A DNA stretch of 20,670 nucleotides from positions 1-20,670 of IMG/VR virus record IMGVR_UViG_3300050821_015519. One strand, given 5' to 3'. Below the pieces are notes generated by a model. The model was not told the DNA's origin. It ran no database searches and saw only the letters and a program-made list of their open reading frames with translations. The stretch is from a virus. The position numbers and the translations under genes were made by a program. Below are positions 1,309 through 19,837 of this stretch, piece after piece; the stretch's first letter is position 1, and the number at the start of each line of letters is the position of its first letter.

Positions 1309-1830
1309 ATGTCAGTTTTACCGCCTGAACCCAGTACGATCAAATCCATCCTCGAAATCTTGCTCAAGCCATTCACGCTGATCTTTAACCCAATAGCCGA
1401 ACGCATCGGCAACAGACTCAAACGTAAGCCAAAACTGTACTTCAACATTCATCCAGTCGGATCAGTTTGGTGCTATGCGTGGAGCGGCGCTAAACCGATG
1501 ATGCAAGTGCGTTTCGATGCCGACATAACGAACGATGGGAATGAAGGAGTAATGCTCTTAGATGGATACGTCAAAGGCACGAAGGCAAAAATACCACTCA
1601 TGCGGAAAATAACAATCCCGCCGACAACCACGATCACGGACAAAATAATTGCGGTGTTTGTTGAACCAATAGTTGGTGAGGGGGGTAAAGATTTCACAGG
1701 AAAGATCGTGTTCGTCGATCAGTTGAAGCGCAAACATTACACCGACAAGACCACGTTCACGTGGGTGGGAACGACTGATCCGCCGAAACCACCAATCCCC
1801 CCTGTGGTAAAATCAGGCGAGACGCCGTAG
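1309..1830 (+). CDS. Unrecognised protein: N-terminal hydrophobic helix plus predicted beta-rich domain
   Basis: About 173 aa, not recognised. Residues about 10-32 (IKSILEILLKPFTLIFNPI) form a hydrophobic or amphipathic helix that could lie on or in the membrane. The basic stretch NRLKRKPK follows. The rest alternates hydrophobic and polar residues as in a beta-sandwich (MQVRFDADITNDGNEG, FTGKIVFVDQLKRKHY) and ends in a Pro-rich tail (PPKPPIPPVV). I chose the ATG at 1309 over an upstream in-frame TTG at 1261, although no strong Shine-Dalgarno is visible. Base composition is noticeably less GC-rich than the integrase. The last ten bases, including the TAG stop, lie inside the following tRNA gene. 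Position beside integrase and defence genes suggests an accessory cargo gene; function unknown. Confidence 0.6.
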   Translation: MSVLPPEPSTIKSILEILLKPFTLIFNPIAERIGNRLKRKPKLYFNIHPVGSVWCYAWSGAKPMMQVRFDADITNDGNEGVMLLDGYVKGTKAKIPLMRKITIPPTTTITDKIIAVFVEPIVGEGGKDFTGKIVFVDQLKRKHYTDKTTFTWVGTTDPPKPPIPPVVKSGETP

Positions 1831-1896
1831 CTCAACGGATAGAGCGTCGGACTTCTAATCCGAATGTTGCGAGTTCAAGTCTCGCCGGGGTCGCCA
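1821..1896 (+). tRNA. tRNA-Arg, anticodon TCT, CCA encoded
   Basis: A complete 76-nt cloverleaf. Acceptor GACGCCG pairs with CGGGGTC (1886-1892), with one G-G mismatch at tRNA position 4-69. D stem is GCTC/GAGC, anticodon stem TCGGA/TCCGA with loop CTTCTAA (anticodon 1854-1856), variable loop 5 nt, and T stem GCGAG/CTCGC with loop TTCAAGT. Discriminator G is followed by encoded CCA. It decodes AGA/AGG, codons likely rare in this GC-rich sequence, and tRNA-Arg(TCT) is a commonly phage-borne isoacceptor. Integrase lies on one side and phage genes on the other, so it is probably cargo rather than a prophage boundary. No second copy of its 3' half is visible in the window. Confidence 0.92.
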
Positions 1897-1921
1897 TTTT
1901 TCACCAAGTAGTGACGAAGCC

Positions 1922-2326
1922 TTGGACAACCTGACTCCAAGCGAACGCAGTAAGCAAATGGGCTTGGTTCGGTCTAAGGACACGAAGCCCGAAATGTTGG
2001 TCAGGAGGCTTGTGCATCGGCTCGGCTACCGCTACAGCCTCCACCGAACCGACCTGCCGGGCAAGCCAGACTTGACGTTTCCTTCGCGAAGAAAACTGAT
2101 CTTTATCAACGGCTGTTTCTGGCATGGGCACAAATGCAAGCTGGGTCGCATGCCGAAGTCTCGCCTCGAATACTGGGGCGCGAAGATCAGAGGCAACCAC
2201 GAGCGTGACAAGCACAACCTCAGACGCTTGCGTGGCATGCGCTGGAGAGTTCTGGTGTTGTGGGAGTGCCAACTGCGGGAACCTGACTCAATCGCTCGCC
2301 GAATACGGAAGTTCTTGGAAGCCTGA
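1922..2326 (+). CDS. vsr: Very short patch repair endonuclease (Vsr)
   Basis: Nicks DNA 5' to the T of T:G mismatches formed when 5-methylcytosine deaminates, starting repair that restores the methyltransferase site. The 134-aa length is normal. The N-terminus carries the family hallmark MGLVRSKDTKPEM. The catalytic Asp is D50 in GKPDLTF, and His is H68 in the CFWHGHKC block. Zinc ligands C65, H70, C72 and C116 (LWECQ) are all present and match E. coli Vsr with an offset of one. The start is taken at TTG 1922, 25 nt after the tRNA, because homology begins immediately and no nearby ATG fits. It lies about 1.2 kb from a C5 methyltransferase on the same strand, its expected partner. Confidence 0.95.
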   Translation: MDNLTPSERSKQMGLVRSKDTKPEMLVRRLVHRLGYRYSLHRTDLPGKPDLTFPSRRKLIFINGCFWHGHKCKLGRMPKSRLEYWGAKIRGNHERDKHNLRRLRGMRWRVLVLWECQLREPDSIARRIRKFLEA

Positions 2327-2350
2327 TTCAGGTAGTGACTCAGTTTGATT

Positions 2351-2677
2351 TTATGTGCTAGCCGCAGTCGCCTTGGGGGTTGTTTGCCCGCCGATCACTT
2401 CAACGTGCTGAAGTTGGACTTGATCATCGTTGAACGTAAAGAAGATTCGTAGATCGGGCATCTTTCCGTAGCCGCGAGTCTTAATCAAAGACAGCCGCGT
2501 ACCCTCTATAACTGGACACTCCTCCGGCTTATAGCACAGAGCGTGGGTCAACCCTGCCATTACCTCATCCAGTCTTTGATAAGGAATCTTCAAAGCCTGA
2601 AAGGCAGTAGTGAACCTTTCGGTTTCAACAATCTCCCTGATGTGATTATGCGACGGAGTGTTGCTCAACCAAGTCAA
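2351..2677 (-). CDS. RelE/ParE-like toxin of a Panacea-type toxin-antitoxin pair
   Basis: Small basic protein of about 108 aa resembling RelE/HigB-superfamily toxins. The core strand region KTRGYGKMPDLRIFFTFNDD followed by VQLQHVEVI matches the conserved Arg-containing beta-strand of that fold. Many such toxins cleave mRNA on the ribosome, and some ParE types target gyrase; the sequence alone does not decide which. It is the distal gene of a minus-strand pair and its start region overlaps the antitoxin end by 32 nt, which implies translational coupling. The start is uncertain. TTG at 2677 gives the longest form and TTG at 2668 is also possible; no ATG exists near the N-terminus. Toxin-second order is usual for Panacea pairs. 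Confidence 0.8.
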   Translation of the reverse strand: MTWLSNTPSHNHIREIVETERFTTAFQALKIPYQRLDEVMAGLTHALCYKPEECPVIEGTRLSLIKTRGYGKMPDLRIFFTFNDDQVQLQHVEVIGGQTTPKATAAST

Positions 2678-3215
2678 GCTCCCTGGCGACGGCCCTACCG
2701 CGCTCTATGTCGGCGGGAGTTGGCTCTTCATGTGACAGGAAAACTGTTTCATATGGGATGGTTTGTCCTAGACTGGGGGTCATCTTCCAGCACATCCAAT
2801 CGTGGGTGAGTTCAGACACGTCTTTTCCATCGGTGCCTTTAACGGCATCAATGACGGCGTCCACAAGGGAGATTTCGGCGGCGGTAAATCCCTTCAAGTT
2901 TGGCTCGCGCAAATTGACTGGCCGTCTCCACTTTCGCAGGGGAAGATTTTGCAGCCCCAAAGACTTTTCCTTTTCCATCTGCTCTTTGAGTTCCCGAATG
3001 TGCCTAGGAGCAGGACCGTATTCCATTTTGATGTACTCCGTGCCGGTGATAGGCTCACCCGATAAGGCGTACATCAGGAAATCAGAAAAAAACAAAACTT
3101 TGCTTAGCTTTAAGGAGTCGAACGATTGATCGTTGGCACACTTCTGGCTAACATACAAAATCAGTTCCTTAAACTGATCGGTCTTTTCTTCAAACTTTCG
3201 CAGTGCGGCGCTCAT
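2646..3215 (-). CDS. Panacea-domain (DUF4065/SocA-like) antitoxin
   Basis: Protein of 189 aa with the Panacea domain signature: KLSKVLFFSDFLMYALSG (residues about 36-53), then a Gly-Pro block MEYGPAPRHIREL (about 64-76), and conserved acidic/Trp helices (LTHDWMCWKM) further on. In PanAT systems this domain neutralises diverse unrelated toxins encoded beside it. The start is ATG 3215, preceded by GGAAG about 9 nt upstream; the longer frame reaching 3311 has no better start. The downstream RelE-like gene overlaps its 3' end. A plausible promoter and palindromic operator lie at 3271-3315. The pair runs opposite to the flanking Vsr and methyltransferase genes, like a self-contained insertion in the restriction-modification island. 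Confidence 0.87.
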   Translation of the reverse strand: MSAALRKFEEKTDQFKELILYVSQKCANDQSFDSLKLSKVLFFSDFLMYALSGEPITGTEYIKMEYGPAPRHIRELKEQMEKEKSLGLQNLPLRKWRRPVNLREPNLKGFTAAEISLVDAVIDAVKGTDGKDVSELTHDWMCWKMTPSLGQTIPYETVFLSHEEPTPADIERGRAVARELDLVEQHSVA

Positions 3216-3270
3216 AGTAGTTACTTCCGTTCCAAGAATGCCCAAAAACAGGATCGCAGGGGCAGGGGAA

Positions 3271-3315
3271 CCCATACACCGTATTTCTGGCCGCGTCAAG
3301 GGTAAATACACCCTT
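3271..3315 (-). promoter_or_regulatory. Candidate promoter and palindromic operator of the toxin-antitoxin pair
   Basis: On the minus strand TTGACG (3294-3299) and TATGGG (3271-3276) are separated by 17 nt, a sigma70-like arrangement with a weak -10. Overlapping the -35 end is an inverted repeat, AAGGGT (3298-3303) and ACCCTT (3310-3315), with a 6-nt spacer. A dyad here suits autoregulation, which is usual for toxin-antitoxin operons. This is inference from sequence only. Confidence 0.4.
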
Positions 3316-3443
3316 CCCGCACATTAAGTGTACAACGGATTAACCTGCAATACCAAGCGCTGTTTTTGGCAGCGTTGCGCTATCCACTAATCCCACAATT
3401 TCGTCGATACTTGATTCCAGTCTCATTTCTCTTTCGCTATTTG

Positions 3444-3477
3444 TTCTCCACAGGGTTTTGTGGGATACTTTTCCACA
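3444..3477. promoter_or_regulatory. Cluster of three DnaA-box-like 9-mers upstream of the methyltransferase
   Basis: TTCTCCACA (3444-3452), TATCCCACA on the minus strand (3459-3467) and TTTTCCACA (3469-3477) lie within 34 bp. Each resembles the DnaA box TTATCCACA. The first two form an imperfect dyad, CCACA...TGTGG. The surrounding 3312-3533 stretch is gene-free and AT-richer. The cluster could bind DnaA or act as an operator for the methyltransferase gene that begins 57 nt downstream. Confidence 0.3.
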
Positions 3478-3533
3478 GTTCGGCACCGATTCACGTTGCG
3501 CATGCGAGCGAGGACGTGTAGAAAGAATCTACG

Positions 3534-4532
3534 ATGGCGACGGCTCTGCGCTCGATAGCGCGTCCAATCCAAAGCGTTCTCCCACTTGGCATCGACCTGC
3601 CGTCCAAACCAGCGGAAAAGGAGCACACGCTTGTCTCAATGTTCTCCGGCTGCGGCGGCATGGATTTTGGGTTCCTCGGCGGCTTCAGGGTCTTCAGTCG
3701 CTTCTACCGCCGCCTTCCATTCCGCATCGTCTGGGCGAACGAGCACAATCCCGCAGCTTGCAGGACGTACCGCCGCAACATCGGAACAGACATCATTTGT
3801 GATGACGTGTGGGATGTAATTGACTCGATGCCTGAACAGGCCGACGTGCTGATCGGAGGCTTTCCTTGTCAGGACGTGTCCGTGAACGGCAAGCGCGTCG
3901 GCGTGAACGGGAAGCGCACCGGGCTTTACAAGGCGATGCTGGAGGGGATTCGCAAGACGCGCCCCAAAGTTTTCGTCGCTGAGAATGTGAAGGGGCTGCT
4001 GATGAAGCACCACCATCGGTTGATTCATCAGGTTGTCGAGGATTTCGAGTCGCTGGGATACAAGGTGTCGTACCAGCTTTACCTCGCCTCTCGGTACGGC
4101 GTTCCCCAGACGCGGGAGCGCGTATTCATCGTGGGAACATCCTCGAAGACCAAACCCTTCGTTCACCCGCCCGCGCTGAAACGGGAGCCGCTCACCGCCA
4201 AGGAAGCAATCTCCGACCTTGAGCGCCTGTGGGAATGTCCGGCGATGAACCACGTCTGGAGCCGGGCGAACAAAAGCCCGGAGCAAGGAGATCGCAGGCT
4301 CAAACCCGACCGCCCGGCGTACACCGTTCGAGCCGAGTGCCACGGCAACATCCAGTACCACTATCGGCTCCCGCGCCGCATCTCCATGCGCGAAGCAGCC
4401 CGCTTCCAGTCGTTTCCAGACACGTTCATTTTCGAGGCGAAGCTGAGGGAAACAGAGAGGCAAGTCGGGAACGCAGTTCCCCCGGTGCTCGCTTGGCACG
4501 TGGCGAAGGCTGTCTGCGCCTGTCTGGAGTAG
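3534..4532 (+). CDS. DNA (cytosine-5-)-methyltransferase
   Basis: Transfers a methyl group from S-adenosylmethionine to C5 of cytosine in a specific DNA site. At 332 aa it contains the ordered family motifs: motif I SMFSGCGGMDFGF (SAM binding, around residues 35-47), motif IV GGFPCQDVS with catalytic C112, motif VI ENVKGLL with E150, motif VIII YGVPQTRERVFIVG, motif IX around MREAARFQSFPDTF, and motif X QVGNAVPPVLAWHVAKAV. All catalytic residues are present. The variable target-recognition region between motifs VIII and IX is short, so the site cannot be predicted. The ATG at 3534 is the natural start. It ends 3 nt from the convergent restriction enzyme gene and is probably its protective partner; the upstream Vsr would repair its deamination products. 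Confidence 0.96.
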   Translation: MATALRSIARPIQSVLPLGIDLPSKPAEKEHTLVSMFSGCGGMDFGFLGGFRVFSRFYRRLPFRIVWANEHNPAACRTYRRNIGTDIICDDVWDVIDSMPEQADVLIGGFPCQDVSVNGKRVGVNGKRTGLYKAMLEGIRKTRPKVFVAENVKGLLMKHHHRLIHQVVEDFESLGYKVSYQLYLASRYGVPQTRERVFIVGTSSKTKPFVHPPALKREPLTAKEAISDLERLWECPAMNHVWSRANKSPEQGDRRLKPDRPAYTVRAECHGNIQYHYRLPRRISMREAARFQSFPDTFIFEAKLRETERQVGNAVPPVLAWHVAKAVCACLE

Positions 4533-4535
4533 CTG

Positions 4536-5537
4536 TCAATCGCGGAAGAGTTCCTTCGACGGAACCCACCCTTGGGCGAGCTTGTCGGCGCGTGCAAGCC
4601 ATTCCTTGACACGCTTCGCAGGCGGAACCGAGACGCCCCAGTATTCCACGAACAGCGCATCCTCCAGCCGCTTCGCCGCGAGCTTCATTTCCGACTCGAT
4701 GTCCTGAAGGGCGCGGAGGATGTAGTTCCCGCCGCGAGTCTGGTCTGCCCGCATCGCCACGCTTCCCGCAGAGAACAAGTCCCTCGCCTGCGAGCACAGG
4801 ACGCCGTGGTACGTGAGTAAGTAGACGGCCGCATCGTCGTACTTGTTCTTCGACCGCGAGGGCTTCACTACCTGCGGACAAAGCAGAGCGGCTTCGGCAC
4901 GCAGCTTCCGCTTTTCCGCCTGCGGGAGCTTCATGTACAGCCTCACCTGAAGCGGCAGCGAATGTTCCTGATCCTTGGTCGGCTTGGCTTCCAACCACCA
5001 CAGATGCTCGCCCTCCTTCAGGCGACCGAGAGCATACTTTCGGATCAAGTCCATTTTCCCCTGCTCAGAAAGCTCTCGGAACTTCTCGTATGTGATGCCG
5101 AACTTCTTGAACAGAGGCTTCTTCGTGCCGATCTCAACCTCGAACCGGGGCACATGGGACGTTCTGACGTGCATCACAACATCTTCGTAATGTCCCCACT
5201 TGACGGCTGGAGTCCCGCCCATCTTCCCAAAGAGGATGTAGATATGCTTTACATTTGCGTCCCGCCTGCCCTCGAACACGCTGTTCGCGACGCTGCGCCA
5301 AGAGTTCTTCGAGTTGACCTTCACCTCGATTCCGAACTCTCCCACCACTATGTCTGGGAAGACTTGGGGGATCGCAGCATCGACCTCGATACCTTTCTGC
5401 TTTGCCAGTTCGCGTAGGAGCAGCCTCGCCCTGTCCTCGAAGGCGCTTGGCACCCGAAGGGCGGGATCGTCGCGCACCTGCCGCGTGAGCTTGGTCGCGA
5501 CAGCGTCCAGCAATTCCTCGAAGTCCTTTTCCGTCAT
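4536..5537 (-). CDS. Probable type II restriction endonuclease, PD-(D/E)XK fold
   Basis: Likely cuts DNA lacking the partner methylation. From ATG 5537 it is 333 aa. Residues 61-73 give a textbook nuclease signature: PD (61-62) in QVFPDIVVGEFG and EVK (71-73) in IEVKVNSKNSW, where the acidic residues would bind Mg2+ and Lys assists catalysis. A helical N-terminus precedes it (MTEKDFEELLDAVATKL), and a long C-terminal half of unknown function (KEGEHLWWLEAKP, EYWGVSVPPAKRVKEWL) may recognise DNA. A longer TTG start at 5567 is possible; a GGAGG lies 18 nt upstream of the ATG, too far to decide. It converges on the methyltransferase with only a 3-nt gap, the strongest contextual support. I do not recognise the specificity family. 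Confidence 0.82.
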   Translation of the reverse strand: MTEKDFEELLDAVATKLTRQVRDDPALRVPSAFEDRARLLLRELAKQKGIEVDAAIPQVFPDIVVGEFGIEVKVNSKNSWRSVANSVFEGRRDANVKHIYILFGKMGGTPAVKWGHYEDVVMHVRTSHVPRFEVEIGTKKPLFKKFGITYEKFRELSEQGKMDLIRKYALGRLKEGEHLWWLEAKPTKDQEHSLPLQVRLYMKLPQAEKRKLRAEAALLCPQVVKPSRSKNKYDDAAVYLLTYHGVLCSQARDLFSAGSVAMRADQTRGGNYILRALQDIESEMKLAAKRLEDALFVEYWGVSVPPAKRVKEWLARADKLAQGWVPSKELFRD

Positions 5538-5648
5538 TCGTCGGACAGGATAGGCCCTCCGGGCCAAAAAGGCCAGTTGAGGCGAGCGCGAAGCCCGTCA
5601 GGAAGTATTGGATAAGGATGGCGAGAACCGCTGCGAGTAGGTCGGGCA

Positions 5649-9219: not shown

Positions 9220-9231
9220 AACCCAATGTTT

Positions 9232-9278
9232 CTAAGAGACTCTAAGAGTCGTGTAAGAGGCTCTTACAAGGCTCTTAG
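9232..9278. repeat. Cluster of five YTAAGAG heptamers in mixed orientation
   Basis: CTAAGAG occurs at 9232-9238 and 9242-9248, and GTAAGAG at 9253-9259. Inverted copies CTCTTAC at 9261-9267 and CTCTTAG at 9272-9278 complete the set. They form two near-perfect palindromes, GACTCT-A-AGAGTC (9238-9250) and GTAAGAG-G-CTCTTAC (9253-9267). Spacing of 10 to 11 bp places the sites on one DNA face. Confidence 0.7.
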
Positions 9279-9308
9279 GGACTCTTTATGCTTCAAAGCT
9301 TTAAGGTG

Positions 9309-9459
9309 TTGAAGTGGTTATGTGTTTAGGTTTTGAAGTGGCAAGGGGTTTAGGTTCGGATGCGCCAAAGAAGTAAGGGGTTGAAGTTTTGAAGTGAGGA
9401 AGTTGTTTTGCTTTTAAGTCATGTAGACAGGAAGCCTAGAAGCCTTGAAGTTTTGAAGC
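9309..9459 (+). repeat. Six direct TTGAAGT/TTGAAGC repeats
   Basis: TTGAAGT lies at 9309-9315, 9333-9339, 9381-9387, 9389-9395 and 9445-9451, and TTGAAGC at 9453-9459. The last four form two closely spaced pairs, TTGAAGTTTTGAAG, with an 8-bp step. TTTAGGTT also occurs twice (near 9325 and 9349). This is an iteron-like arrangement. Confidence 0.6.
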
Positions 9460-9467
9460 TTCCTGTC
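9426..9467. repeat. 10-bp perfect inverted repeat
   Basis: GACAGGAAGC (9426-9435) and GCTTCCTGTC (9458-9467) enclose a 22-nt loop holding the last TTGAAG pair. The right arm is not followed by a T-run, so termination is unlikely. It may be a cruciform or a binding site at the right end of the repeat array. Confidence 0.55.
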
Positions 9468-9615
9468 GACACTTCTTGCAAGCAAGACAAACCCAAACTC
9501 GCTAGACCCATAGTTCGTTAGCGAAGCAAGAGAGAACCAAAAACAAAACTCTCGCTACCAGACCCCTTATGAAGTAGCAGTACGCAGTTAAATTTCGGAC
9601 ATAGGAGTTAGACAG

Positions 9616-10056
9616 ATGTGGACACCCAAGCAACGGCTTCACCCGAAGATCATAGACGCCCTGTACATGGGGGGCTTCTCCACCCTACAGATAGAGTTCC
9701 TCGGCTGGCTCAGCTACAACGCCGCCGCGTTGAACAATTCCCGCAACCCGGTCAAAGCCGCACACACGATTCTTGCCAAGGCGAATGACACGGAATCAAA
9801 CATGCACAGGATGCTGCTCACCTTTGAGAATCGCAAGATGGATTCCATTGAACCTACCGAGAAAGAGGAGCATGAGGTTGCCGACAAGGTGCTGGATGAT
9901 CTTGAATGGGCTATCAAATCGGCAATCACCAAGGCTCAGATGAGCGCCTCGGACTATGAGGATCACACCAAGCAGGGCGTCTCGGACGGCGTGCCCATGA
10001 CCAAGGAAGTGTTGGAGTCGGAACTGGCACCCGACGAGGAGGATTCAGATGAGTAA
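9616..10056 (+). CDS. Unrecognised phage protein with acidic tail
   Basis: A 146-aa protein; ATG 9616 follows ATAGGAG at about 8 nt. The N-terminal two-thirds is helical (HPKIIDALYMGGFSTLQIEF, then NPVKAAHTILAKANDTESNM). A Glu-rich helix (TEKEEHEVADKVLDDLEWAI) and a strongly acidic C-terminus (APDEEDSDE) follow. It is the first gene after the repeat region and overlaps the next gene start (ATGA), so it heads a small operon. An acidic tail is compatible with a DNA mimic or a protein-protein adaptor, but nothing in the sequence identifies a partner. Confidence 0.65.
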   Translation: MWTPKQRLHPKIIDALYMGGFSTLQIEFLGWLSYNAAALNNSRNPVKAAHTILAKANDTESNMHRMLLTFENRKMDSIEPTEKEEHEVADKVLDDLEWAIKSAITKAQMSASDYEDHTKQGVSDGVPMTKEVLESELAPDEEDSDE

Positions 10057-10216
10057 GGCAGAGATAGTGGCGACGCACCCGGCGTTCGGCGAGGTCACGT
10101 TCGTGATCGAAGCAGAGGACACGGTGAAGGCGTTCAGCATTTGGAAGCAGATCGTTTTCAGTTCCCGGCAGTGGGTCGTGAAGTCCAACACCGTCGCGGA
10201 TAAGGTAGGGGTGTAA
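10049..10216 (+). CDS. Unrecognised 55-aa protein
   Basis: ATG 10049 overlaps the preceding stop and uses GAGGAGG, about 9 nt upstream inside the previous gene. The sequence begins MSKAEIVATHPAFGEVTFVI and ends in a beta-like segment RQWVVKSNTVADKVGV. It alternates hydrophobic and polar residues like a small beta-rich fold. No family recognised; the short length and good coupling support it as a real phage gene. Confidence 0.5.
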   Translation: MSKAEIVATHPAFGEVTFVIEAEDTVKAFSIWKQIVFSSRQWVVKSNTVADKVGV

Positions 10217-11203: not shown

Positions 11204-11379
11204 AGTTTGTGGAACCTCGCGCCTTGTGGCGTCCGAGTGCTCCCCGTTTGCGTGTACGCCCCGTCTTTCCAGTAGTGCCAGAGAATCAGACCTTTGGAAC
11301 GGACACCTATGTATCCGTTCCCGTCTGAGAAGTACCCCGACACGCGGTAGGTTCGGCACAGTTCGCTAATCGTTCTCAT
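11200..11379 (-). CDS. Small unrecognised protein
   Basis: A 59-aa ORF whose ATG (11379) overlaps the ATPase stop as ATGA and whose TGA overlaps the next gene start in the same way. This double overlap is the main evidence that it is real. The sequence runs MRTISELCRTYRVSGYFSDG, then NGYIGVRSKGLILWHYWKDG and AYTQTGSTRTPQGARFHKL. It is aromatic-rich with short beta-strand character. No motif is recognised. Its position between the clamp-loader ATPase and a small basic protein suggests an accessory replication or regulatory role. Confidence 0.5.
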   Translation of the reverse strand: MRTISELCRTYRVSGYFSDGNGYIGVRSKGLILWHYWKDGAYTQTGSTRTPQGARFHKL

Positions 11380-12056
11380 GCCGCGAGCAACTCCGTCTCT
11401 AGGGACATGAGCGCATCCCTCACGTTGTTTTTGGCGTCCCGCATGATGCGGAGAAAGTTAGGTTTCTCGCTGGCATCGGGAGCCTCGCGCTGGAAGATGC
11501 TGGCGAGCAACTCCGCACCCGGCTCAGCGAGTCCGTGAGAGGAAAAGTCTATCTGCCGTGTGCGGCTCAGGAATCGAGGCTCAAGACCATCTGTCGAATT
11601 GCAAGTGAATATGAAGATGGTTTGCGGCGGATATGCCGTGCCGTCTAGCTTGCTGAGAAAATGCAACTGAGAGGCATTACTCATCTTGTCCGCCTCGTCC
11701 ACTAGAACGACATGGAACGTGTTGCCTTTTGGCACGTACCAGCATTGGCGGATCACGTCGCTGACGTTCGCTACGTTGCACTCCTGAGAGGGGATGTGTT
11801 TGATCTCCGCCCCTAGCTGTTTCGCCAAGGCGATAGCGAACGTGGTCTTGCCAGTCCCCGGAGGTCCACAAAACAGCCATGCTGACTTGTACGGAGCCTC
11901 AAGGAATTTAGTGAAGATGCGTTTCGGTTTGTCCAGCCCGATAAACTCGCTGATAGTTTCGGGCTGATACTTTTCGCTGAGTGCTTGAGGAAAGGCAAAG
12001 CCTGACTGCTCTGCCCTGACTCTCACACTGTCTGTGACGCCATCAAACAGACTCAT
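11376..12056 (-). CDS. AAA+ ATPase, clamp-loader/RFC small-subunit-like
   Basis: A 226-aa AAA+ ATPase starting at ATG 12056 with AAGGA about 8 nt upstream. An N-terminal block typical of RFC/RuvB-like proteins (LSEKYQPETISEFIGLDK, residues about 27-43) precedes Walker A GPPGTGKT (64-71), Walker B VVLVDEAD (116-123), sensor 1 in IFTCNSTDGLEPRF (N153) and a likely Arg finger in SRTR (164-167). A short helical lid with NNVRDALMSLE follows. It lacks the C-terminal collar domain of full clamp loaders, so it is shorter than RFC-small or DnaX. Phage clamp loaders (such as T4 gp44) load sliding clamps on DNA. No clamp or polymerase gene is visible here, so it may work with host factors. Confidence 0.87.
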   Translation of the reverse strand: MSLFDGVTDSVRVRAEQSGFAFPQALSEKYQPETISEFIGLDKPKRIFTKFLEAPYKSAWLFCGPPGTGKTTFAIALAKQLGAEIKHIPSQECNVANVSDVIRQCWYVPKGNTFHVVLVDEADKMSNASQLHFLSKLDGTAYPPQTIFIFTCNSTDGLEPRFLSRTRQIDFSSHGLAEPGAELLASIFQREAPDASEKPNFLRIMRDAKNNVRDALMSLETELLAA

Positions 12057-12330
12057 ATCTCCATCCTTTCTCTCGCGTCCAGCGAGCAATCGGCTTGTCT
12101 TGATTTGTTCTGACTGAGACTTGCGTTACGGACGGATCACTAACAACTGCCTCGACTGCGCGACGAATCGCGTGTAGTCCGGGGAAGAGAAAACTGCCAG
12201 CACTAGGGAGCCTTGCTTCTTTGTAGTGCTGGACAGGATTCCAGAGGCAATAAGCCGCACCTTGCGGCTTGCCTCGTTTGTCTTTGCCAGTGAAGAAAAC
12301 GTCAGCGCGGTACGGAGTCAATTCACTCAC
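12043..12330 (-). CDS. Unrecognised 95-aa protein upstream of the ATPase
   Basis: GTG 12330 overlaps the preceding stop (GTGA), and the 3' end overlaps the ATPase start by 14 nt, so it is part of the coupled minus-strand operon. The sequence mixes aromatic and basic residues, with segments YRADVFFTGKDKRGKPQGAA and FLFPGLHAIRRAVEAVVSDP, then VTQVSVRTNQDKPIARW. The layout is an alpha/beta fold, with strands likely around residues 8-14 and 69-75. No family recognised. Tight linkage to a clamp-loader-like ATPase suggests a replication or repair accessory function, but nothing in the sequence proves it. Confidence 0.6.
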   Translation of the reverse strand: MSELTPYRADVFFTGKDKRGKPQGAAYCLWNPVQHYKEARLPSAGSFLFPGLHAIRRAVEAVVSDPSVTQVSVRTNQDKPIARWTREKGWRYESV

Positions 12331-15823: not shown

Positions 15824-15976
15824 GTGAAGCCGTTCACCGTGGACGAACTCCTGAAATTGAAGCGACCTACTCCCGATTTGCGCTTCTACGATTCGCTCGA
15901 TTTGCAAGGCTTCATCCACGCACCGCTAACGCAGGACTACATTGCCCGTTCCCTATCACAAGTCAGAATGCCGTAG
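15824..15976 (+). CDS. 50-aa ORF overlapping the terminase start
   Basis: GTG 15824 follows the previous TAA directly. The reading MKPFTVDELLKLKRPTPDLR, FYDSLDLQGFIHAPLTQDY, then IARSLSQVRMP is compact and plausible for a small helical phage protein. Its last 35 nt overlap the terminase gene in another frame. It fills the gap between the His-rich gene and terminase exactly, which supports it. Function unknown. Confidence 0.45.
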   Translation: MKPFTVDELLKLKRPTPDLRFYDSLDLQGFIHAPLTQDYIARSLSQVRMP

Positions 15977-17714
15977 CCTTGAGAAGCTCCGGGCGATTCA
16001 CAGCGGCTCGCAGAGCGGCCTCACCTTCGAGCAATGGCTCAATCTCCGCGACCGCTGCCGCAAAGACCTTTTCTTCCTCACCGTAAGCATCCTCGGCTGG
16101 ACACGAGTCATCGAGCGTGTTCACCGCCCGGTCTGCGACTTTTTCGGCAAGCTCAACTTCGATGGCGTGTACCACGACGGCTACACGCTTGAAGAATTGC
16201 AGAATGCCATCGCACGCCAAGACCCCGACTTCAAAGAAGGCTTGCTGCTCGATCCCCGTGGCGCTTTCAAAAGCACAATCAACGGCTGCAATTGCGTTCG
16301 CTGGCTGCTCAACTGCCCGGACATCCGGATTTTCATCGTCACGGGCGAGTATGACAACGCCGTGCTTTTCTTGCAGCAGATCAAAAAGTATTTCTACCAG
16401 CCGGAAGGCGCTCCCCGCACGAAGCTCCAGCAGCTTTTCCCCGAATACATCATCGGCAAGCGTGACGGAGAATCCGAGTCCCCGCTTGAATGCCCCGCCC
16501 GCATCCACACGGAGCAGAAGGAACCCTCGCTTTGGGTCAATGCCGTCACCGCGACCCTCGCCTCTCAGCATTGCGATCTGAAGATCGGCGACGACGTTGT
16601 ATCTGACCGCAACTCCACAACGCCGGAAGCTCGCAAGAAGCTCAAGGACAAGTACGACAACGTAGACAACCTGTTGGACGAGTGGGGATATGCAATCAAC
16701 ATCGGCACCCGGTACGCACTGGACGACTACTACGGCGAGCGGCTGCGGATTCCGCAAGAGGATGCCCCGCTCAAATACTTTTGCCGTGCGGCTTGGACGG
16801 TGAAGCCTGAGTTTGCCAACCTGCCGCTCCGCGAATTGAAAGAGCACATGGTCGATCTGCTCTTCCCCGAAAAGCTCAACTGGAAAGTGCTTCGCAAGAA
16901 GCTCCTCAAGAACGAGCGGGACTTCCGCTGCCAGCAAATGAACGAGCCGCAGCCGGACGTGGATGCCGTGAACTTCAACGAGGATGTGCTGCGCTCCCAT
17001 CTGGAACAGCACTCCGCCGCTCCGCAGGACGGCGATCTCGTCATCGCATGGGACTGGGCACCGACATCCACGGACAAAGCCGACTACAGCGCCGGAGCCG
17101 TGGGTCGCATCGACAAGTCGAAGGCCGAACTCCATATACTGGAAATCGTGTTCGGGCGCTGGAAGTACAGCGAACTCGCATTCCAGATAGTAAGCCTTGC
17201 GAAGAAGCACAACCCCCGGATCATCCTCGTGGAAAAATCCGCAGGCACGGAATTGCTGCAAGGGGAAATTGCCCGCGTCGCCCGCCGACTGCAAGTCCCG
17301 ACTCCCATCATCTTCCGAGACTTCGGCAACAAGGACAACGCCAAGGCGAACCGCATCAAGGGGCTGGAAACCCTGCTCGCCGAGGACAGGCTGTTTTTCG
17401 TGCAAGGCCCGTGGATTGACGAGACCTTCGCCCAGTTCGTTCGCTACACGGGTCTCAAGAAGAACAAGGGACGCAAGGACGACATCCCCGATGCCGTGAG
17501 TATGCTCCAGTTCTTTCTCCCCGCAGAGCCTCGCACGCCAGTTGACGCCGGGGAAGCGAAGAAAGCGCAAGAGGACGCCGAGAAAAAAGCGGCGGGAGAG
17601 GCTTACATGCGGATGGTTTTCAACCGCAACCCCGCCGCTCCCCCCGTGATGCGGACGGAGCCGAACCCTCGCCGCTCCCGCTTTGACTTCCGCAATTTCG
17701 GGCTGACTCAGTAG
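15942..17714 (+). CDS. terL: Phage terminase large subunit
   Basis: The motor and nuclease that pumps DNA into the prohead and cuts concatemers. At 590 aa it has both domains. The ATPase domain has a Walker A-like loop DPRGAFKST (104-112) in the diverged form with R/K before S/T, and a Walker B-like strand LKIGDDVVSD (213-222). The C-terminal RNase H-like nuclease has AWDWAPTSTDKADYSAG (D about 370), ILVEKSAGTELLQ (E about 431) and KDDIPDAVSMLQFFLP (D about 513). The catalytic acidic residues are present. The TTG start at 15942 (AGGA 8 nt upstream) gives a natural N-terminus. A charged tail follows the nuclease. It is followed by the portal, the usual order. Confidence 0.95.
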   Translation: MPVPYHKSECRSLEKLRAIHSGSQSGLTFEQWLNLRDRCRKDLFFLTVSILGWTRVIERVHRPVCDFFGKLNFDGVYHDGYTLEELQNAIARQDPDFKEGLLLDPRGAFKSTINGCNCVRWLLNCPDIRIFIVTGEYDNAVLFLQQIKKYFYQPEGAPRTKLQQLFPEYIIGKRDGESESPLECPARIHTEQKEPSLWVNAVTATLASQHCDLKIGDDVVSDRNSTTPEARKKLKDKYDNVDNLLDEWGYAINIGTRYALDDYYGERLRIPQEDAPLKYFCRAAWTVKPEFANLPLRELKEHMVDLLFPEKLNWKVLRKKLLKNERDFRCQQMNEPQPDVDAVNFNEDVLRSHLEQHSAAPQDGDLVIAWDWAPTSTDKADYSAGAVGRIDKSKAELHILEIVFGRWKYSELAFQIVSLAKKHNPRIILVEKSAGTELLQGEIARVARRLQVPTPIIFRDFGNKDNAKANRIKGLETLLAEDRLFFVQGPWIDETFAQFVRYTGLKKNKGRKDDIPDAVSMLQFFLPAEPRTPVDAGEAKKAQEDAEKKAAGEAYMRMVFNRNPAAPPVMRTEPNPRRSRFDFRNFGLTQ

Positions 17715-17761: not shown

Positions 17762-19837
17762 ATGCCGAAACCCACGCTGCCCGCAGCCGAAGTGCTGCCG
17801 AACAATCTCCGCCACGACGAATCCGGCTCTTACCTCTACGACGACGAAGCCGCTCTAAAGATCGTCCTCGATGCGACATCGAACGGCGATGCGTGGATGA
17901 ACCAACAGAATTGGCCCGCAGGATGGTCTACCGCTTATCAGATTTACCAGTCCCCCGCAGCCGTAAGCTGCTTTGACGGTGGCGGCAACTCCAGCGCCCA
18001 CGTCCCCAATTACACCGTCTCGAACCTTTGCGATACGACCGTCCCGAAGATCATGGGCGGACTTTTTTACGAGTCTCCCCCGTTTTTGCTCCGTCCCCGT
18101 CCCGGCACAACGCAAGACATGGTGGACGCCAAGACCGCGCTCTTCGCCTATCAGCTAAGCGACATGCAGTTCGAGGAAGAGTGCGAACTCGCCGTGCTAC
18201 AGGGTGCGCTCATCGGCACGATGGTTATGAAGTGGGGCTGGACGGAGCGCACCGAAAAAACCAAGAAGTACAAGCGCCGCAAGGAGCCGCAGGAAATCCG
18301 GAACGCCGTCAGCGGCATCGTTCACAAGATTCACTCCGAGGAGTCCGATGCGTTCGACATCGAGTACGAAGAAAAGCTCATCTCCCGTCCTTGGATCAAG
18401 TATTGCGACCGTCGCTGCGTCATCGTCAACCGGGGTTGCCGGGTCGGGGACATTCGCAAGGCGAAAGATGTTGTCTACAGGGATTACGCCACCTACGAGG
18501 ACTTGGATCAGCTACGAGGCTATGAGGGCTACACAATCCCGTCAGAAGCGGAACTCCAGAATTTTTACATGCGTGAGCGGTTTACCCCCGATGGCGACAA
18601 CATCGCCGTCACGCTCCCCGAATCCATGCGGGGATGGATTCAGACTGCGCTTCCCCGCAACTACAAAGACTCCGCAGACCCACTGCAAAACGGTCTCGAA
18701 CTACTCGAATACTGGAGCAACAATTTCGTAATCGTCGTGCTGCGTCACGGCGACGACAACATCCTCATCCGCAATGAGGCGAATCCTTACAAGAAAATCC
18801 CGTTCTACAGTGCTTGCTGGCGTCCGATCCCCGATTGTTTCGACGGTCAGGGCATCGGCGTATTAGCTGGAAGCAATCAGCTTGTAGCTCAGGGCATCAC
18901 GGACTTGAGCCTCAGTCGCCTCGACTATGGCTTGCAGCCCACAGCCATCCGGTCACAGGGTTTCAACACGCCGGGGCAAGACCTCGTGTGGACGCAGGGC
19001 GGAATCATCGACGTTGAAGGCGACGTGGACAAGGCGTTCAAATTTTTGGAGTTCCCTCCGCAGGACGCAGCGGCAATGGCATGGCTCATCCAGCAGCAAG
19101 CGGAAGCCAAGGAAACGGTCGGAGCAAACCAGCAATTTTCTATGGGCGCGGGCGCTCCCGGCATCCAGACGACGGGCGCACGGAGCGGCTCCGGTGCTCA
19201 GGGCATCATGCAGGCGAACGCATCCCGCCTCGACGGTCCCATCGGACGCATCGTGCGGCAAATTTTCATCCCTTGGTTGCAGCAGATGGACGAACTCAAC
19301 AACGACCGTCTGCCGTCCAGTGTTCTCCGTGATGTTCTCAGCAAGGAAATGGGCAAGCAATTCGACGTAGATCACATCCAGTTCCGATCTGCGGAGCTTG
19401 AATACGAAGTGCTCGCGGGCGCAAAGCTCGGTCCCAAGAAGGAAATGGCGCAGTTCTTCCCGTTCCTCATCCAGCTAATGAACAACCCAACTTTCGTGAC
19501 GATGCTCAACATCGAAGGTTTCAAGTTCAAGGCGGCGAATGCCTTCAAGAACTTCGCCAGTTTCGCAGGCTGGAAGTATGCACAGGACTTCGTTGTCCCG
19601 ATGACGCCGCAAGAGCAGCAGAAGGCGGACGCACAGTTGCCCTCCGCGATCAACGCTCAGAAGGCGAAGGCAGCGAAGGACATGGAAAACCAGAAATTCG
19701 AGAACGCCGTGAAGGAAGAGCAGGAAAAACAGTTGAGCAAGGCAGGCGGGGAAGTCACCCGCACGACCATCGAGCACGCTATGGACGCCGACACATCCGG
19801 CTTGGCGGAGCCTTTCGGCTCTGACACGCAGTTATAA
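17762..19837 (+). CDS. Phage portal protein (P22-like)
   Basis: Forms the dodecameric ring at one capsid vertex through which DNA enters and to which the tail attaches. At 691 aa, its length and pattern fit podovirus-type portals of the P22 family. An N-terminal wing lies around YQIYQSPAAVSCFDGGG and CDTTVPKIMGGLFYESPPF. A central crown/stem region includes PYKKIPFYSACWRPIPDCFD and GQGIGVLAGSNQLVAQGITD. A helical C-terminus has AAMAWLIQQQAEAKETVGAN and GIMQANASRLDGPIGRIVRQ, ending in a Gln/Lys-rich coiled tail (residues about 620-665). ATG 17762 lies 47 nt after terminase. No strong Shine-Dalgarno precedes it. Other portals share the G-I-G-x-L...Q...I-T-D arrangement. Confidence 0.88.
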   Translation: MPKPTLPAAEVLPNNLRHDESGSYLYDDEAALKIVLDATSNGDAWMNQQNWPAGWSTAYQIYQSPAAVSCFDGGGNSSAHVPNYTVSNLCDTTVPKIMGGLFYESPPFLLRPRPGTTQDMVDAKTALFAYQLSDMQFEEECELAVLQGALIGTMVMKWGWTERTEKTKKYKRRKEPQEIRNAVSGIVHKIHSEESDAFDIEYEEKLISRPWIKYCDRRCVIVNRGCRVGDIRKAKDVVYRDYATYEDLDQLRGYEGYTIPSEAELQNFYMRERFTPDGDNIAVTLPESMRGWIQTALPRNYKDSADPLQNGLELLEYWSNNFVIVVLRHGDDNILIRNEANPYKKIPFYSACWRPIPDCFDGQGIGVLAGSNQLVAQGITDLSLSRLDYGLQPTAIRSQGFNTPGQDLVWTQGGIIDVEGDVDKAFKFLEFPPQDAAAMAWLIQQQAEAKETVGANQQFSMGAGAPGIQTTGARSGSGAQGIMQANASRLDGPIGRIVRQIFIPWLQQMDELNNDRLPSSVLRDVLSKEMGKQFDVDHIQFRSAELEYEVLAGAKLGPKKEMAQFFPFLIQLMNNPTFVTMLNIEGFKFKAANAFKNFASFAGWKYAQDFVVPMTPQEQQKADAQLPSAINAQKAKAAKDMENQKFENAVKEEQEKQLSKAGGEVTRTTIEHAMDADTSGLAEPFGSDTQL

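Follow-up and report, generated by a model that had tools for sequence, protein, structure and literature searches.

The 20,670-base record IMGVR_UViG_3300050821_015519 of IMG/VR, which was analyzed over its full length and is referred to here as the window, derives from a tailed phage. Its positions 9220–9615 lie between an open reading frame (ORF) of 74 amino acids and ORF146, a 146-amino-acid orphan on the + strand (9616–10056), which is followed on the same strand by a second orphan of 55 amino acids, ORF55 (10049–10216). An initial annotation, made from the sequence alone, had described this stretch as a gene-free, AT-richer and skewed region with several repeats, and in this respect it holds: There is no plausible gene, the GC content is 43% compared with 56% window-wide, and the + strand is G-skewed. 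A 13-codon frame at 9288 and a small frame at 9320 were discarded as genes because their counterparts in the related phage L003, which is introduced below, stop after two and seven codons, respectively.

An array of contiguous octads and its flanking hairpins

The region contains an array of 22 contiguous octads on the + strand (9285–9460) with the consensus T-T-[G/T]-A-A-G-T-G (TTGAAGTG), which is not palindromic. All octads point in one direction and are poor in C (9%). Their individual positions are conserved to very different degrees: Base 6 is a G in 22 of 22 octads, that is, every 8 bases from 9290 to 9458, base 4 is an A in 20 of 22 and base 2 is mostly a T, while bases 1, 3, 5, 7 and 8 vary. 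The self-identity of the sequence at lag 8 amounts to 0.54 compared with 0.285 in dinucleotide shuffles (z-score 6.8; reached in 0 of 2000), with further peaks at lags 16, 24 and 32 and a value below the null at lag 4. Moreover, when the longest run of equal bases was determined for any step from 5 to 26 across the whole window, the array's run of 22 was the longest and the runner-up reached 11; 1000 shuffles of the region gave a maximum of 12, and a 12-octad pattern had no match in shuffles.

This register reorders the repeats that had been noticed before. The initial annotation distinguished three families, and the repeats themselves are real, but their grouping has to be revised. The six forward copies of TTGAAGY (9309, 9333, 9381, 9389, 9445 and 9453) are present as described; their starts are all equal modulo 8, and they are the best-preserved members of the one octad array. 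A single reverse copy lies at 9290, and the word occurs 18 times in the whole window against 6.5 expected, a count that no shuffle reached. Of the five YTAAGAG heptamers claimed at roughly helical spacing, only three are exact words within the region (two on the + strand, one on the − strand), although the core TAAGAG does occur five times, with three direct copies (9233, 9243 and 9254; steps of 10 and 11) and two inverted ones. Instead of a row of repeats, these copies build one hairpin, H1 (9234–9286, + strand), which has 26-nucleotide arms that are 85% complementary and lies just upstream of the array. Over the whole window YTAAGAG shows no excess (5 compared with 3.1 expected). The exact 10-bp inverted repeat, GACAGGAAGC at 9426–9435 and GCTTCCTGTC at 9458–9467, was correctly recognized and forms the perfect core of a further + strand hairpin, H3 (9403–9490), in which the last octads pair with the sequence just past the array.

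A cassette shared with a second phage

One relative was found: L003, from record IMGVR_UViG_3300050821_005745, a prophage whose terminase is of another type. Its array (2501–2652) lies upstream of the ORF146 orthologue and comprises 19 octads, of which 19 carry a G at base 6. The repeat conservation that the initial annotation had named as a check is therefore found in one form and missing in the other: Most TTGAAGY words are gone in L003, but the 8-base register is retained. The two arrays differ in length by 24 bases, which corresponds to exactly three octads, and share the register at start and end. Base-level alignment places two gaps of exactly 8 nucleotides in four of seven gap settings and splits them in the others; the third octad missing from L003 has no clean placement. 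The best-conserved stretch of this alignment corresponds to the first six octads of the window array (9285–9332, + strand; TTTATGCNTNAAAGCTTTAAGGTGTTGAAGTGGTTATGNGTTTAGG).

The drift across the octad positions is uneven. Under uniform drift, a mismatch-free column would be expected with P 0.00035 and 0.00015 within the two arrays, and a base 6 that is unchanged between the two phages with P 0.003. The mismatch-free column thus makes uniform drift of a tandem repeat an inadequate explanation, with the 41 octads of both phages not being independent, since the cassette is shared by descent.

A comparison of all window ORFs with the L003 phage record yielded only ORF146, ORF55 and a distant integrase similarity in common. 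Consequently, the array, ORF146 and ORF55 travel together between otherwise unrelated phages and constitute one co-inherited phage cassette. ORF146 is 67–69% identical in L003 (E 5e-26 for the 69% match) and is predicted to be helical, with low confidence (AlphaFold predicted local distance difference test score, pLDDT, 59.5). ORF55 is 61–68% identical, and its predicted fold is beta-beta-alpha-beta (pLDDT 86); matches of this fold to an archaeal ribosomal protein, the RNA polymerase-binding YkzG (E 0.25) and T7 Gp2 (E 1.3) were rejected as not significant (E at least 0.25). Neither protein has a usable match in Pfam, NCBIfam or PHROGs. Scans of the genome collection with ORF146 and with the terminase alignment gave no relatives, DNA patterns from the conserved block returned only the L003 contig and otherwise chance coding matches, and BLAST of the region against phage and plasmid sequences gave nothing.

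The remaining window has the following layout. The integrase lies at the left end and is adjoined by a defence-type island (1821–5567), in which a tRNA-Arg(TCT), the sole Rfam match of the window and thus outside 9220–9615, precedes the genes. Within this island we recognized, by eye, a Vsr-like gene (1922–2326), a C5 cytosine methyltransferase-like gene (3534–4532) and a restriction-endonuclease-like gene (4536–5567), together with a SocA/Panacea-domain antitoxin and its small partner (2351–3311), for which the Panacea domain was tested. A clamp-loader-like ATPase is encoded at 11376–12089, the terminase at 15942–17714 and the portal at 17762–19837.

Step-8 arrays beside parA in other replicons

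Viral contigs were scanned with a pattern of 14 octads with a G at base 6, which gave at least 119 matches. Among the matches listed, most are near-perfect simple repeats or coding repeats of 12 or 24 nucleotides and were set aside; the two most degenerate of the listed arrays, L151 and L152, both adjoin parA and are independent occurrences of the architecture. The L151 array (2213–3240, corresponding to about 70.7–71.7 kb of contig G004, a 118-kb viral record) extends over about 1 kb directly upstream of parA, has a G in 94 of 102 octads and is probably the centromere of a plasmid or phage-plasmid. The best NCBIfam match of its ParA is ParA_partition (E 9e-37, below the model's curated cut-off), and the gene after this parA encodes a protein whose C-terminus resembles a ribbon-helix-helix (RHH) domain by eye, with no model match. 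In L152 (3479–3662, contig G005), a ParA gene and, on the other strand, the gene of a 123-amino-acid basic protein flank 23 octads that follow the scheme [A/T]TA[T/A][T/C]G and never deviate from A3 and G6. A separate octamer arrangement was seen in L083, where, on the reverse strand (512–660), GTTTTGAG/GTAATGAG octamer repeats precede inverted octamers of the ACCTTATA type, and where a long imperfect hairpin is possible.

As a control, twelve plasmids were chosen by ParA similarity alone and not by arrays, eight of them close (54–60% identity) and four more distant, and the intergenic stretch before parA was compared with the maximum of 200 shuffles. Step 8 is outstanding upstream of parA in L153, L155, L159, L160 and L162 (13–14 of 14, above the maximum of the shuffles); in L156 steps 8 and 16 stand out more weakly, so that five to six of the eight close relatives have an array. 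L154 and L161 did not pass the test, and in the stretches downstream of parA step 8 is never the leading step. The five clear cases are Methylobacterium plasmids whose step-8 G/C arrays before parA are unannotated in the gene tables. These arrays and that of G004 share with the phage array the invariant G (C on the other strand) at every eighth base, the variability of the other positions and the intergenic location. They differ from it in lying directly upstream of parA and, in G004, in a GC-rich consensus whose base 1 is a C; the phage array resembles TTGAAGTG and adjoins ORF146.

Possible functions of the array

Three other explanations of the array have to be weighed. The main rival, which we consider rather unlikely, is that the array acts as RNA: An oligomeric RNA-binding protein would read the + strand transcript between the hairpins every 8 nucleotides and regulate the genes downstream in a TRAP-like manner. 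The single direction and low C content of the octads and their location in a possible 5' leader are consistent with this, as is the fold (z −4.8 on the + strand compared with −3.3 on the other). On the + strand of the window, the individual hairpins reach z −4.8 (H1) and −5.6 (H3), and both recur in L003 with changed bases, albeit more weakly (z about −2 each; −2.1 at the place of H1). Of H3, the upper stem is re-formed there from altered bases and the lower stem is not kept, and two sequences are too few for covariation. Moreover, the complete L003 region has no folding advantage over shuffles on the + strand (z −0.8), and the − strand gives the stronger signal (z −2.3). Rfam gave no match in the region but only weak microRNA-like hits that scored well under the gathering threshold. 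Repeated NAG triplets, the sites read by TRAP at intervals of 4–5 nucleotides, are not what the array offers, as its period is 8 and its lag-4 identity is below the null. Finally, the step-8 arrays beside parA argue for a DNA role of this architecture.

A replication origin with initiator iterons, which the initial annotation had put forward, is improbable. The region is AT-rich, repeat-rich and gene-free, and the phage encodes the clamp-loader-like ATPase, but the iteron word TTGAAGY is not conserved in L003, the TAAGAG family resolves into a hairpin, and the octads follow one another without spacing and in a number well above that of typical iterons. In addition, no Rep/initiator or helicase loader was recognized among the neighboring genes in Pfam and PHROGs scans, and the GC-skew check proposed along with the origin reveals no switch inside 9220–9615, the turning points of the cumulative skew lying at about 6.2 kb and 10.7 kb of the window. 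Least probable of all is a functionless, decayed tandem repeat produced by slippage: Viral contigs often contain tandem octamer arrays, as the predominance of near-perfect simple repeats among the scan matches listed illustrates, but here the drift is very uneven, with the G kept in 41 of 41 octads across two phages, the register outlasts a change in length, and ORF146 and ORF55 accompany the retained array in phages that are otherwise unrelated.

The alternative offered by the initial annotation, namely non-random DNA to which a regulator binds at multiple sites, is supported by the octad register, which is far beyond chance and kept in the relative. On balance, we favor a cooperatively protein-coated array that is centromere- or operator-like and whose DNA-binding coat protein is probably a product of the cassette. 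In such an arrangement, duplex DNA would be bound by a cassette protein, ORF146 being likelier than ORF55, or by a ParB-like protein of the host or a co-resident replicon; the coating protein would control the cassette promoter and may also hold or position the phage DNA. The co-inheritance points to a cassette product as the binder, ORF146 first, with a host or plasmid ParB as a further candidate. Fitting uses of the array would be a cassette operator, a centromere-like site or, as in pSM19035, both.

Several known systems offer a comparison. In parH of TP228, box and spacer together make up an 8-bp period, and tandem metboxes, which are palindromic and few, are bound cooperatively by RHH dimers. 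While parH has direct and inverted boxes together with the ParF ATPase and ParG, the phage array is all direct and without ParF; the phage octad shares the 8-bp unit with the metbox but is non-palindromic and repeated 22 times. The coating of contiguous 7–8-bp repeats by RHH dimers is established for the omega heptads (PMC9499535), for ParG, whose degenerate boxes in parH have AT-rich spacers (PMC7308502, PMC5016525), and for MetJ, a dimeric repressor on an 8-bp metbox (PMC2775130). In parS of pSM19035, one RHH dimer binds per heptad, at least four contiguous repeats are needed for full function, and the sites overlap promoters (PMC9499535). Like the phage array, this parS consists of short, contiguous, unspaced and non-palindromic repeats; unlike it, the repeats are 7 bp long, present in 7–10 copies and, in their native arrangement, of mixed orientation, and are accompanied by genes for ParA (Delta) and omega, whereas the phage array has 22 copies of 8 bp in a single orientation and no ParA was found. 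A precedent for replicon-stabilizing repeats without their own motor is R388, where direct repeats and the DNA-binding protein StbA stabilize the replicon and the ParA-like StbB is not needed (PMC3098194). These stbDRs differ from the phage array in being 9-bp plasmid repeats spaced by 2 (an 11-bp step), and no StbA relative was recognized in the phage. In Geobacter, tandem octanucleotide repeats have been annotated as predicted sites of a global regulator (PMC2700814).

Type Ib partition loci combine at least four contiguous 7–8-bp repeats in a non-coding site with a gene for a ParA-type ATPase and an RHH protein that binds the centromere, and they stabilize their replicon. The phage array has 22 such repeats, and 19 in L003; a ParA-type ATPase (PF13614, PF01656) was unmatched in the window, a near-identical record and the L003 phage (G000, G001 and G002), all of which are fragments. 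Given this negative result for ParA, and with both phages carrying integrases, we do not assign the array to the partition loci; it may be described as working like a type Ib centromere without being classed as one. Further observations weigh against a coated array. The predicted fold of ORF55 is not RHH, and ORF146 has no usable structure model. The RHH model PF01402 matched nothing, not even the candidates beside parA in G004 and G005, and because these were missed too, the search is uninformative on RHH. Just two members of this precise family were found, the four more distant ParA relatives lack a step-8 array, and the flanking hairpins and + strand folding would also fit an RNA element. 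A more specific version of the coated array, which we regard as unlikely, would be a phage maintenance cassette that pairs an orphan octad centromere with ORF146 as a novel kind of DNA-binding protein and, having no ParA of its own, acts by tethering the phage DNA to the nucleoid of the host or with a ParA borrowed from the host or a co-resident plasmid.

The strict rule of a G at every eighth base, with the rest free, provides an alignment-free signature for sites that would be coated by oligomerizing DNA-binding proteins. With it, arrays next to parA were picked up in contigs and plasmids that are unrelated, and phages without a recognizable ParA were seen to share this architecture; the rule may also find centromeres of the Methylobacterium-plasmid ParA family. 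Should a cassette product bind the array, it would define a new and directly testable protein family. The question then arises of what role a centromere-like array plays in an integrating phage.
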